Shown here one piece after another: positions 41,549 through 63,835 of a stretch of DNA of 64,000 bases; position 1 is the first letter of the stretch, and each line of letters starts with the position of its first letter. This DNA is from Nymphaea colorata (lineage: Eukaryota; Streptophyta; Magnoliopsida; Nymphaeales; Nymphaeaceae). The stretch is taken from assembly GCF_008831285.2 (NCBI RefSeq), contig NC_045148.1, forward strand, positions 19,709,002 to 19,773,001, read 5' to 3'. The notes below the pieces were generated by a model. The model did no database searches and had not been told where the DNA came from. It was given only the letters and a program-made list of their open reading frames with translations. The position numbers were made by a program, and so were the translations under genes.

Positions 41549-46916
<5,368 letters not shown>

Positions 46917-57680: not shown

Positions 57681-58704
57681 CTTGCTTTATTTTTATAAAC
57701 GAATCTAACGAGGATGAAAAACCTAGTTATAAGGTTTTTGAATCTAAATTAGTATTTGTAGCTATCATGCAGCTCTTGACTATTATTAAAATCTTTAATA
57801 CAGCTTTTGCGATGTGCTCATGAAAATTGAAGGGTTTTCATATTTTGATATTAATATTAAGTTTGTATTTGTAATTCTTAGTCTCTTGCCTGGCAGTCGT
57901 TTCTAAACTTAATTGGACCCACTGGAACTTGCTAAATGTTACTACCCAATGGTAAATGAATCAGTATATTCACGTTTATGATTTCAAATCTTAACTTGGA
58001 TTAACAAAAAAAAAAAAAGGCGTGAAGACTACACTTGAATCTCCACAATATTGAACCGAATCCTTTTTGTCTTTCACAAAACCAAGCTCACTAAATCCCA
58101 CGGCATCTGTTTCGCTCTCACACACACAAAAGTTTTATGGTTACCTGCACTGTGCACAGTTTCCTGTGGATCTTTAGAAATATTTTTGACCCAATTTTAG
58201 AGATAGCGTATCATGCACGCAAATCCATGCACCTTTACATGGTACACGGAAAGACCGAGTCCTCCCTCTTGCAAACAAGAATCAACGTGCGAAAGTTGTC
58301 CCCACAAACAATAATCAACATGTTTGACTCTGGGGCAGTCTTTATTAAAAATATTTTCGGTGGACACTTTCTTGAATTAAATTACTGTAGATTGGAGGAT
58401 GATGAAACTTTGTCAGCCTTGTAGTCAATGAGAGAAGTATTGGCATGTTTTTGTCGGCACACAAAAAGAAATGTCCGTAAAAGCCGGCCCCTAACCTGTT
58501 CCGGGTGGGGAAGACCTCCTAACGTAGAACCACGCCATTGACCCATCCAAGTCCACCTTGCTCGCTCGCTCAAGGTCACAAGGCCGATCACGGGAATATA
58601 GAGAGAAGCCGTGGAAGATTTATTTCCTCCTCAACACCTTCCCTTTTCCTCCTCCACCCTCTGCAAGCATGGTGCGTTGCTTGAAACGTGCGCAGCAGTT
58701 TTCC
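57681..58704. other. Upstream region and 5' leader of CRK gene 3
   Basis: Contains no gene. The open frame of exon 1 extends upstream to an ATG at 58558 and another at 58669. The ATG at 58705 ('ttccatggcg') is preferred because a typical signal peptide begins there. A 95-codon frame at 58137-58424 has no recognisable features. Confidence 0.45.
58186..58543 (+). promoter_or_regulatory. Cluster of three W-box cores upstream of CRK gene 3
   Basis: TTGACC at 58186-58191, TTGACT at 58324-58329 and TTGACC at 58538-58543 lie 160-520 bp before the start codon, all on the + strand. TTGAC(C/T) is the core bound by WRKY factors, and W boxes are known to be common in CRK promoters. The hexamer is short enough to occur by chance, so function is only suggested. 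Confidence 0.3.
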
Positions 58705-61700
58705 ATGGCGAGAGAGGAACTCGTTCTGCTTCTGCTTCTAGCGGCGGCTTCAGCTCAGTTTTGTAGTGCTGATTATCTGTACTTCATATGTTCAACTTCT
58801 CCAAGTTTTACCGCCAACAGCACCTACCGGCAAAACCTGAACACCGTCCTCTTCTCCCTCACCTCCAATGCGTCTAAAAACGGCTTCACGGCTGCCACCG
58901 CCGGCCAAAGCCCCGACCAGGCGTACGGCCTCGCCCTTTGCCGCGGTGACGTCTCCCCAAGCGACTGCACGAGCTGCACGTCGGACGCAGCCAAGGAGAT
59001 AGTCAACCACTGCCCTAATGGGAAGTCTGCAATCATATGGTACGACAACTGCCTCCTTCGCTACTCCGGTCGGGACTTCTTTGGAGTGGTCGATACCGCT
59101 CACGAGTTCTACATGTGGAATTCCGACTACATATCGGACCCCACTCTCTTAAATTCAGTGCTTGGATCCCTCATGAACAACCTCACTTCGACGGCCACGG
59201 CCGATCCGTCGGGCCGGCTGTACGCGGCCGGACATACTAAGTTCAATGAGTCCCAAGACTTATATGGGCTGGTGCAGTGTACAAGGGATCTCTCAAGCAG
59301 TCAATGCGCTAATTGCCTGAAGGATGCCCTTTCCAAAATCCCGACCTGCTGCGAAGGGATGCAGGGCGGTCGGGTTGTTGAGGCAAGCTGCAGCGTAAGA
59401 TACGAGATATACCGTTTCTTTAATGACTTGGGGACGGCTCAACCTTCTCCCCCGAACGGCACGGCTTTGCCACCGGCGAATCCGCCCGTAGGCGCCCCTC
59501 CTCCTATCTCCAAATCTGGTAATTGGTACCGCCTCTGTTACTTTTCCCACAGAAGGTCCCCAATTTTTTTATTAGAATAAAATCAGTAGATGTGACATCT
59601 TTTTTGCTTTGGAGAGAAGGATGAAATTAAAAATTTTACTAACTAAAATCACTATTATTCAGGACTTCATGTAAGAACTAATCTGCACAATATTAAGAAA
59701 AAGACAGTAAATGACATTACTCTTTTCAAAACTATATTCAATTTTGGTATTTTCACTTTCTTTACGTTTGGCTTCTACCTGCAAGTTTTCCACATGCATA
59801 ACGTTTTGCTTTTCTTGCAGCTTCACCAGAATCTAGCATGCCTCAACCTATGCGGTATTATTGCCCAACCACTTCCAACTTCACTGCCAATAGCACCTAT
59901 CAGCGAAACCGCGACGCCCTTTTACGCTTCTTCTCCTCCTCCTCTAATGCATCCGTAAGTGGCTTCGCCACTGCCACGGAGGGCCGCAGCCCGGATCTGG
60001 TCCATGGCCTCGTCCTCTGCCGTGGCGACGTTCCTGGGGACAATTGCATGGCCTGTATCTCGTATGCAGCCTTCTGGATAGTTCAGTTCTGTCCCAAAGG
60101 GAAATCGGCAGTGGTATGGTACGATTCCTGCCTCATGCGCTACTCTGACGTCAACTTCTTTGGAATGGTAAATACCGACGTCTCCTTCACCATGGCAAAT
60201 CTCGAGAACACGTTAGACGTCAATCTTTTCAATTCACTGCTCGGGGTACTCTTGGACAGCCTCTCCTCAAACGCGACGTCTGATCCCTCCGGCCGGCTGT
60301 TTGCTACCGCAGAGACAAGGTTCAACGACCGCCAGAAGATGTATGGGTTGGTTCAGTGCACAAGGGACCTCTCCGCCTCTGCCTGCACGAATTGCCTGTC
60401 CACAGCCATGTCTCGGATCCCGAGTTGCTGCGACCGCAGGCGGGGTGGCCGGGTTGTCACGGCGAGCTGCAACGTGAGGTACGAGTTGTACAATTTCTTC
60501 TACGGCCTGGTGGGGCCTCAGCCTTCTCTTGAAGCTGTAGGGGTTTCAGCACCAGCGAGTCCCCCTGCGAGCATCGCCCTTCCTCCTTCCAATGCAGCGT
60601 ATGGTTGGTATCCTTTAACTCTTAAACTATTCCTTTGTTAATCATTTAGTTGTCGACGCTCTTCCCCAGTTTTATTGCATAACTCATGCAGTATTGTTGA
60701 ATGGTTAGGCTGCCCATGTCATGTGAACTAGATAACTGCATTGTTGATCACCTCTCAGCCTTCTCTTTCTCTTTCTTTTTTTTAAAGCATGAACTCTGCC
60801 AAATAAATCAGCAATCGGTTTCGTCGATGCTGCTAACAGTTTCTTCTATACATCAGCGGATGAAACTTTATTCTCCTACTTGTGCTTTTTGTTTTCTTCC
60901 ATAGTTTCCAGTAGTACTGTTGCGTTTCAGTTTTTTGTTTTTTTTCCATTAGTTTGAAGTATTTTTGTGCTTCATTTTGTTTTTCTGGTTCTCTATCCAG
61001 CACTTTGACTGGTGATAATGACATTGCTTATCTAAATCGCTTAATTCCTAAGATAATTATTCTTATATGAAATGAAGATTCAAAACGTTCTCTTGAAACA
61101 TGGTTTGCTTTGCGGAAAACATGAGATTGTGGTTCATTATAAACGAAAAATGCTCACTTGCTCTTTTTCACCACCTGTTTCCACTATAAGATTTTATTTC
61201 CTCTTTTTTATCACTTGTTTCTACTTTTGCTTGGATGTAAGTGTTCCTGTTTATGGGCTGTCGTTCTTCCCCTCCGGTTTTAGGAGTGATTTCTTGCATC
61301 ATTGCAACGATTAGATGTTCTTTTTTCTTACATTTATTTCGAAAAAAGTCTTCTTGTCCAAAACTCCAATAATTATTTGTGTTCCGTCTACAAACACGCA
61401 GGTCCCGGCAAGTCGAGAACAAGAAGAACGATGATCATCGTCTCCGTCTTGGTTCCATCAACAGTACTTTTATGCCTCCTGACATTTTTCCTATTTTCCA
61501 AGAAAGCCAAAAGGAAAAGCACCACCCAAGGTTCGCCAATATCTACAAATATCTGGGTCACGCATTTTACTTTTTGGTTGTCGTTTGTGGATGCTAAGAT
61601 TCAATATTCCTATTCAGGTTATGGTGGCGAAGAAATTGATAGCAAGATCTCACTGTTTTTTGACTTGGACATCATTAGAGCTGCCACGAACAACTTTTCA

Positions 61701-63835
61701 GATGCTAACAAACTTGGGGAGGGAGGGTATGGTCCTGTTTACAAGGTAAAGGTCCTCTATCTACTTGAGATTGCATATCAATATCTGTTTTATAGATTTC
61801 TGTAAAATTTCATGAAAATATCAAAAAAAAAAACAAAACTGAATGGGATTTCTGCAGGGTCAACTGTCAGACGGACAGCAAATAGCAGTAAAACGGTTGT
61901 CCAGGAACTCGGGGCAAGGCTCAACTGAGTTCAAGAACGAGGTGAAGTTGGTAGCAAAGCTTCAGCACAGGAACTTGGTTCGCCTTCTTGGTTGCTGCTT
62001 TGAAGGGGAAGAAAAGATACTCATCTACGAATACGTACCCAATAGAAGCCTGGACAAGCTATTATTTGGTTAGTCATCTGCGGCTTCACAGTCTTTAGTC
62101 TTCTGCAGATATCAGCATCCCAGTTACCAATAGTACTTAGATGTGCTGTTGTTAGTAACCTTAGTTTCCTTCTTAAGATGTGTAATTGGTAGATTATAAT
62201 TAAGGAAATTGGTTCACGTTCTTGAACGACAATCTATTCTCTTTATTTGAGCGGCTAAAACGACAGTACCCATTGTATTAACTCTTACCAGCACCGCGTC
62301 CATGTTTTACTCGTGAAGGCTCTCAATTGGCAGTCCAAAAATCATATGGTTGAACCTCACAAAACAATTTTTTGTCTATTTTTTGTTTTTTACCAGTTAT
62401 TATGCTCAGGTGTGCTTCCAGATCACTTCTTTCACTGGATTAACATTGATTTAGATACAGGCTATGCCTTAGCCTGGTTGTCCAATGATCCAATAGTTTA
62501 CCTTGATCCTGCAAAAACTGACCTGGATTCCTGAAAGTGTCATCTATGAATATTTGGCCTGGTCTTTGGTGCATTGTATCGTTCGCACATTTACCCTTGT
62601 ATCAACGTGAATACTGTATTGTTTCTACTCAAACATAACATGGTTTTATTGATTATTCATTGTGCAGATCCAGTTAGAAAAACACAATTGGACTGGCTGA
62701 TCCGGAGCAAAATAATAGCTGGCGTAGCGAGAGGACTTCTCTACCTTCATGAAGATTCTCGACTTAAAATCATCCACAGGGACCTCAAGGCCGGTAACAT
62801 ACTTCTAGATCAGGACATGACTGCTAAGATTTCAGACTTTGGCATGGCAAAGCTTGTTGGAGTGGAAGAAACACAAGGCAAGACGAGTAATGTTGCTGGC
62901 ACATAGTAAGTTCTGCATCCTAACCTGCATGTCAAATACCGATCCTGTGCATGGAAAAACAGTGATCAGTAGATGAGTATGCGTATCTTATTCTCCCATA
63001 CAAGGACCTTCGCATATACTATTTTTATTCTAACAGCAACAGCAAAAATTTTTAATACTACGCAGGCTTCTACCGGTTCATTTTTTGCTCGTTGTAGAAA
63101 GCTCCCTAACCAACCTCCGCTGGTTAGAATGCCACTAAATTATAAACAACAGCATTCCTTAACACCATAAGGGACCTCTCTGACTGACCTATTAATGTTT
63201 AGAATGCCACAAATTACAAAAATTGAGCTCACTTTGTTCTCTTGTCAGTGGCTACATGGCACCGGAATATGTTATGCAAGGCCAATTCTCTGTCAAGTCA
63301 GACGTGTTCAGCTTTGGAGTCTTGATGCTAGAGACTGTTAGTGGCGTGAAGAACTCTTCATTCCCTCATTCACAATATGGCTCAAGCCTGCTTGACTATG
63401 TAAGCATTTTGTTGTAACAACAGATTAATTTCGTATGCGCATATGCTGCTTCATTTTTTTTAATTTTATGTGGAAATGGCACAGGCGTGGAGGCTGTGGA
63501 GGGAAAACAAGGCAACTGAACTATTAGACGAATCACTCACTCATTCAAGCGACGGAAGTGAAGTGGCAAGGTGCATCCATATTGGGTTGCTATGCGTTCA
63601 GGAGGATGCAACACGAAGGCCAACAATGTCGTCTATTGTTCTCATGCTCAATAGCAGCTCTTTGACCCTTCCTGCGCCTTCGGCTCCTGCTTTCATATTG
63701 GGGAGAAGCAGAGTGTACTCAGACACCTCAATCACTGGCTCATCTGCAGCAAGAACGGGGTCGGACAAGTCACGGAGTGGTTCCGCCCCAAAATGTGAAA
63801 ATGATATGACCATTTCCGAGGTTGAAGCTAGATAA
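58705..63835 (+). CDS. CRK gene 3: receptor-like Ser/Thr kinase with four DUF26 domains
   Basis: Eight coding exons: 58705-59518, 59821-60603, 61402-61530, 61618-61745, 61858-62068, 62668-62905, 63249-63399, 63485-63835. They total 2805 bp and encode 934 aa. Exon 1 carries a signal peptide ([17 protein letters not shown]) and two DUF26 domains ([26 protein letters not shown]). Exon 2 has no signal peptide and carries two more ([26 protein letters not shown]). Membrane helix about 543-564, then kinase: [11 protein letters not shown], Lys630, IIHRD Asp727, DFG Asp745, GYMAPEY; the C-terminus is ISEVEAR, typical of CRKs. CRKs usually have about 650 aa and two DUF26 domains, so this ectodomain is doubled. 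Exon 2 is phase 1-1 (783 bp), so skipping it would give an ordinary two-domain CRK. Alternative view: exon 1 could be a separate secreted DUF26 protein, but the in-phase splice sites and the missing second signal peptide favour one gene. Confidence 0.85.
59821..60603 (+). repeat. Duplicated ectodomain exon within CRK gene 3
   Basis: This 783-bp exon is a diverged copy of the DUF26 part of exon 1. The two share [50 protein letters not shown] and [30 protein letters not shown] in the same order. It lacks a signal peptide, starts after a good acceptor ('ttttcttgcag'), and both borders are phase 1, which permits duplication or skipping without frame loss. Confidence 0.8.
61531..61617 (+). other. 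Short in-frame intron of CRK gene 3 (87 bp)
   Basis: The donor 'cccaag/gttcgc' is weak and the acceptor 'tattcag' is good. The intron is a multiple of three and contains no stop in the reading frame, so retention would insert 29 residues (FTFWLSF-containing) between the membrane helix and the kinase domain. Genes 1 and 2 have a long intron with stops at the equivalent place. Confidence 0.6.

Follow-up and report, generated by a model that had tools for sequence, protein, structure and literature searches.

A CRK receptor kinase gene of Nymphaea colorata with four DUF26 domains on two consecutive exons, probably derived from an old duplication of the ectodomain exon

CRKs normally carry two DUF26 domains, as an earlier note on the DNA described here correctly stated, yet CRKs with four of them have already been published (PMC6237359, PMC6356535), so the doubled architecture in itself is not new. 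In soybean, 11 GmCRKs of 903-948 amino acids, representing 12% of the family, bear four DUF26 domains, as do 7 of 53 CRKs in Medicago and 2 of 54 in Phaseolus, and further four-DUF26 CRKs occur in fruit trees and cotton (PMC6237359); those of Phaseolus were named PvCRK9 and PvCRK26 (PMC6356535). Eudicot CRKs with more than two DUF26 domains are few, CRKs usually comprise seven exons, and exchanges of ectodomains and kinases have happened among them (PMC6368629). The ectodomains of GmCRKs are mostly encoded on one or two exons, and that of the four-module CRKs of soybean, Medicago and Phaseolus lies on one exon in all cases (PMC6237359). A 64,000-nucleotide stretch of the Nymphaea colorata genome (contig NC_045148.1, positions 19,709,002 to 19,773,001 of the forward strand; hereafter the window) contains a CRK gene whose four DUF26 domains are distributed over two successive exons. 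This two-exon form is a variant of the known doubled ectodomain, which in the three legumes is always encoded by a single exon. Among the matches listed from the open-licence DUF26/CRK literature, taken without supplements, there was no CRK whose ectodomain is spread over two exons of one DUF26 pair each; PMC6320849 was rejected as a report of four DUF26 domains, as "four" refers there to genes.

Splicing of eight exons from the ATG at 58705 gave one open frame of 934 amino acids, as proposed in the earlier note. The open frame was confirmed, while the start is likelier to lie at the in-frame ATG at 58669, which is preceded by A at -3 and followed by G at +4 where 58705 has T at -3, giving a predicted product of 946 amino acids. 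Combination of the GT/AG sites around the seven hand-placed junctions yielded 18 open combinations including the 934-amino-acid model, and both DUF26 exons and the exon 2 end at 60603 were retained in all 18. Exon 1 could be joined to exon 2 in frame in three ways (59518/59821, 59518/59830 and 59525/59837). The intron phases are 1,1,1,0,1,2,0, so the proposal that all borders are in phase 1 holds for the ectodomain borders (introns 1 and 2) as well as for introns 3 and 5, and fails for introns 4, 6 and 7. The features of the gene are as follows.

58669-59518 (or from 58705), + strand: exon 1, encoding the leader, the first DUF26 pair (D1) and a Pro-rich stalk, ending in a phase-1 donor; from open frame and junctions, two PF01657 matches, E 9.2e-43
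59519-59820, + strand: intron 1, the additional intron, 302 bp, 69% AT
59821-60603, + strand: exon 2, encoding the second DUF26 pair (D2) and a stalk, without leader, phase 1 at both ends; two PF01657 matches, E 3.1e-39
61402-61530, + strand: exon 3, transmembrane segment, with the top hydropathy of the protein from residue 556
61618-61745, + strand: exon 4, juxtamembrane part and Gly-rich loop
61858-62068, + strand: exon 5, kinase, IAVK lysine
62668-62905, + strand: exon 6, kinase, HRDLK and DFG
63249-63399, + strand: exon 7, kinase, APEY
63485-63835, + strand: exon 8, kinase C-lobe, tail and stop

Pfam analysis of the spliced protein revealed PF01657 (DUF26) four times and a kinase, for which both PF07714 and PF00069 exceeded the cut-off, and the occurrence of PF01657 twice in each of the two successive exons verified that each encodes one full DUF26-A/DUF26-B pair. 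Four CX8CX2C motifs, typical of CRK DUF26 domains, are located at residues 91, 204, 350 and 463 of the 946-amino-acid model. The kinase at the end is intact, as had been claimed, with GEGGYG, IAVK, HRDLK, DFG and APEY all present in frame, and its top-scoring PDB match was BAK1; a transmembrane segment precedes it, as in other CRKs. According to hydropathy, which is not a dedicated signal peptide predictor, a hydrophobic stretch expected of a CRK signal peptide stands near the N-terminus before D1, whereas exon 2 does not begin with one, in agreement with a leader on the first exon only. The gene departs from the usual, though not obligatory, CRK plan of seven exons with one for the ectodomain, having eight exons with two for the ectodomain, and the in-frame kinase sets it apart from the ddCRRSPs and PDLPs, which have none. 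A stalk rich in Pro, Ser and Ala closes each of the two ectodomain exons (approximately 59438-59517 and 60520-60602), and the linker between D1 and D2 consequently looks like a copy of the juxtamembrane stalk.

A tblastn search of the window with parts of the gene uncovered two further CRKs upstream on the same strand, whose models were hand-picked out of 36 open combinations each and which served as comparison genes.

41549-46916, + strand: CRK A, seven exons, two DUF26 domains, 675 amino acids
50593-55152, + strand: CRK B, seven exons, two DUF26 domains, 676 amino acids

The first exon of either gene encodes one DUF26 pair (Pfam), and the intron phases of both are 1,1,0,1,2,0. By comparison with the series 1,1,1,0,1,2,0, the four-DUF26 gene is therefore the normal CRK plan extended by a single ectodomain exon and a single intron of phase 1, and its six other exons agree in phase with those of CRK A and CRK B.

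D1 and D2 are identical at 133 of 252 positions (53%, E 4e-90, BLASTP), a likeness that is evidently not due to chance, while either shares only 37-40% identity with the ectodomains of CRK A and CRK B, which are 58% identical to each other. In NG86 comparisons, D1 and D2 differ over 247 codons by 0.37 nonsynonymous (dN) and 1.06 synonymous (dS) substitutions per site, the ectodomains of CRK A and CRK B show a dS of 0.74, and between D1/D2 and A/B dS was saturated in three of four comparisons and 4.96 in the fourth. At about 0.35, the dN/dS ratio shows D1 and D2 jointly to be under constraint, as a value in which the branches are not separated. Trees with ultrafast bootstrap supports were built from the four ectodomains of the window and PDB relatives only, with PDLP5, PDLP8 and Gnk2 included in the tree of single DUF26 domains. 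In the latter, the DUF26-A domains of D1 and D2 were split together from the rest (92) and their DUF26-B domains were grouped (86), and the whole-ectodomain tree likewise grouped D1 with D2 (87). The pair-by-pair grouping points to the whole DUF26 pair as the unit that was copied and, taken with the 53% identity and the dN/dS ratio, places the copying of the ectodomain exon long ago, as judged from these sequences. The internal duplication of an ectodomain exon within one gene, as the earlier note had suggested, is well supported by the open frame, the phase series, the comparison with CRK A and CRK B, the pair grouping and the missing leader of exon 2. It is thus quite probable that the locus is a single CRK gene of functional appearance in which the ectodomain exon underwent tandem duplication long ago, probably via unequal exchange within the CRK array, and the four-DUF26 CRK is real, old and probably functional.

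The same product could have another history, namely the fusion of two neighbouring CRKs with loss of the transmembrane and kinase exons from the first and of the promoter and leader from the second, which we consider possible but rather doubtful. A tandem array exists in which such a fusion could take place, a stalk is encoded by each of the two exons as expected of complete first exons, and a new acceptor before exon 2 would be needed by either route, first exons having none. D1 and D2 are mutually closest among the four ectodomains of the window and the two PDLPs, which argues against fusion; this closeness separates duplication from fusion only weakly, because tandem neighbours would be expected to be closest as well.

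An artefact of assembly duplicating one exon was also considered and ruled out by divergence, as the two copies share only 67% identity in a blastn alignment of 652 columns and nothing was found in favour of an artefact, leaving this explanation a practically nil probability. No direct repeats of at least 20 bases were reported across 58000-61500 by a tool that may miss repeats this diverged.

Several points weigh against an internal duplication within a single gene. Some CRK from another part of the genome might resemble D1 or D2 more closely than these resemble each other, which would turn the locus into a fusion of different genes; searches with the exon-2 protein of viral_contigs (1 patterned stretch) and genome_contigs (146 patterned stretches), neither of which comprises plant genomes, gave 0 confirmed matches. 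No homology linking intron 1 with intron 2 or the promoter was detected (860, 384 and 547 per 1000 shuffles equalled the real score) in a test of little power, since the comparison of CRK A with CRK B over intron 1, which served as positive control, was itself weak (165/1000 shuffles). The splicing as modelled is read from genomic sequence, and in leave-one-out scoring of the splice sites of all 19 modelled array introns, the exon-1 donor was weak, ranking 16th of 19. Furthermore, read-through of exon 1 leads to a stop at 59578-59580, approximately 58 bases past the donor, which overlaps an AATAAA at 59576; a second polyadenylation-like hexamer of intron 1, ATTAAA, is found at 59626.

The weak donor and the overlap of the read-through stop with AATAAA would both suit two transcription units, in which exon 1 with intron read-through encodes a secreted ddCRRSP-like protein of 303 amino acids, and exons 2-8 constitute a CRK or a relic without leader. 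This arrangement is very unlikely in our view. The exon-2 acceptor is strong (4th of 19), the frame and cysteine motifs of exon 2 are intact with the copies under constraint, and AATAAA is presumably common in AT-rich introns. In addition, the frame of exon 2 is preceded by a stop at 59799-59801 with no in-frame ATG between this stop and the exon start, and its first ATG, at 59839, is followed by no hydrophobic stretch. Since exon 2 lacks a leader, it is unlikely to belong to a second receptor gene separate from exon 1. The exon-2 donor, GTTGGT, ranked 12th of 19 and belongs to the same type as those of intron 2 in CRK A and CRK B.

With the weak exon-1 donor, the read-through stop and AATAAA, a secreted product with two DUF26 domains is conceivable. 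The computed product of exon 1 and intron 1 read-through has a leader and no transmembrane segment and could represent such an isoform, while removal of exon 2 keeps the frame (computed, 685 amino acids with a single stop at the end), so that cassette skipping is possible. Accordingly spliced transcripts might comprise a four-DUF26 kinase after full splicing, a two-DUF26 kinase after exon 2 skipping and a secreted two-DUF26 protein after intron-1 retention or polyadenylation. The 2 to 11 splice variants in 43 GmCRK genes provide a precedent (PMC6237359), but phase-compatible exons are expected from any duplication of this kind, and we regard the production of all three as unlikely, although less so than two separate units.

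As the first exon has no 3' splice site, the exon-2 copy must have gained one. The region of the exon-2 acceptor resembles the leader-coding region of exon 1 in the pattern CGTTYTGCTT..TTCT..GCRGCTTCA. Equally good alignments between the leader core and the acceptor region were obtained in 67 of 1000 dinucleotide shuffles, and for a longer stretch in 248 of 1000, with the stretches having been chosen after the likeness was noticed. The in-register match of 13/27 tied for first with one other among the 19 acceptors of the array, and was reached by 5 of the 133 AG sites with pyrimidine-rich surroundings found on the + strand, namely the one of exon 2 itself, one within the leader and three others. 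A relic of the leader at the exon-2 acceptor is suggestive only. With slim probability, the copied leader codons, T-rich for hydrophobic residues and followed by GCA GCT TCA, would have become the polypyrimidine tract and AG, whereby splicing removes the second signal peptide, and the weak exon-1 donor would then allow the four-DUF26 kinase, the two-DUF26 kinase and the secreted two-DUF26 protein to be formed.

For the favoured duplication of the ectodomain exon, the following course can be proposed. Unequal exchange within the CRK array would have generated a tandem copy of the ectodomain exon, which became internal through a new 3' splice site near the former leader end, in phase 1 like the exon-1 donor. 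The leader of exon 1 would serve the entire protein, a predicted receptor kinase that crosses the membrane once and carries its two DUF26 pairs one behind the other, with a Pro-rich stalk between them. The DUF26 array would recognise an apoplastic cue that the kinase relays, as in other CRKs, and doubling of the ectodomain might alter ligand reach or multivalency.

With the two comparison genes, the region 41549-63835 holds three tandem CRK genes on the + strand. Intron 1 of CRK A (42369-42470) was modelled with a GC donor, CAG|GCTAGT, chosen by comparison with CRK B after donors were tried in 42360-42375, a region without GT. Only two stop-to-stop frames of at least 110 amino acids occur in the 41 kb of 1-41000, which for this reason looks largely non-coding or built of short exons.

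The PDB sequence relatives of D1 and D2 at E <=0.001 are PDLP5, PDLP8 and Gnk2 (four distinct sequences). An AlphaFold2 model of D2 computed from four sequences was of modest quality, with a predicted local distance difference test (pLDDT) of 58.4 and a predicted template modelling score (pTM) of 0.55. Its six Foldseek matches at E <=0.001 were all chains of PDLP5, PDLP8 or Gnk2, with PDLP5 and PDLP8 best, and as the whole-chain template modelling scores of the tandem matches were low (0.36-0.37 by query), the model supports the single-domain fold and not the domain arrangement.

Gnk2 (Ginkbilobin-2) is a mannose-binding protein with a single DUF26 domain, and N, R and E in the DUF26-B domains of both D1 and D2 align with its residues N11, R93 and E104, which we take to be mannose contacts. 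None of the three is kept in the DUF26-A domains of D1 and D2. The motif GGRV..RYE is common in DUF26-B domains of CRKs, and mannose binding by the DUF26-B domains is a lead only. Gnk2 Arg132, named with Glu130 in PMC6368629, would correspond to Tyr here if precursor numbering applies. In the DUF26-B domains of CRK A and CRK B, the positions aligned with N, R and E of Gnk2 are occupied by T, E and D.

The gene prompts one to ask by what route an acceptor arises in front of a first exon once this has been duplicated, and since its second ectodomain exon can be skipped in frame, doubled and single ectodomains would be comparable at one locus. The natural doubled ectodomain is a useful test object, because for most DUF26 ectodomains no ligand is known (PMC6368629).

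Different from the four-DUF26 gene with its two pairs and a kinase, PDLPs have one pair and no kinase, while the ectodomains of PDLP5 and PDLP8 (PDB 6gre, 6grf), the top PDB sequence matches of D1 and D2, share with them the tandem arrangement of DUF26-A and DUF26-B. The DUF26-B domains of D1 and D2 lack the first cysteine of PDLP DUF26-B and have a CC doublet. Compared with standard two-DUF26 CRKs such as CRK A and CRK B, the exon plan and phases of the transmembrane and kinase part are the same, and one extra ectodomain exon and intron are present. The four-DUF26 CRKs of soybean, Medicago and Phaseolus are closest in architecture, with a doubled DUF26 pair, a kinase and a similar size (934 or 946 amino acids here), but their ectodomain is encoded on one exon, whereas that of the Nymphaea gene is divided between two exons parted by the phase-1 intron at 59519-59820.

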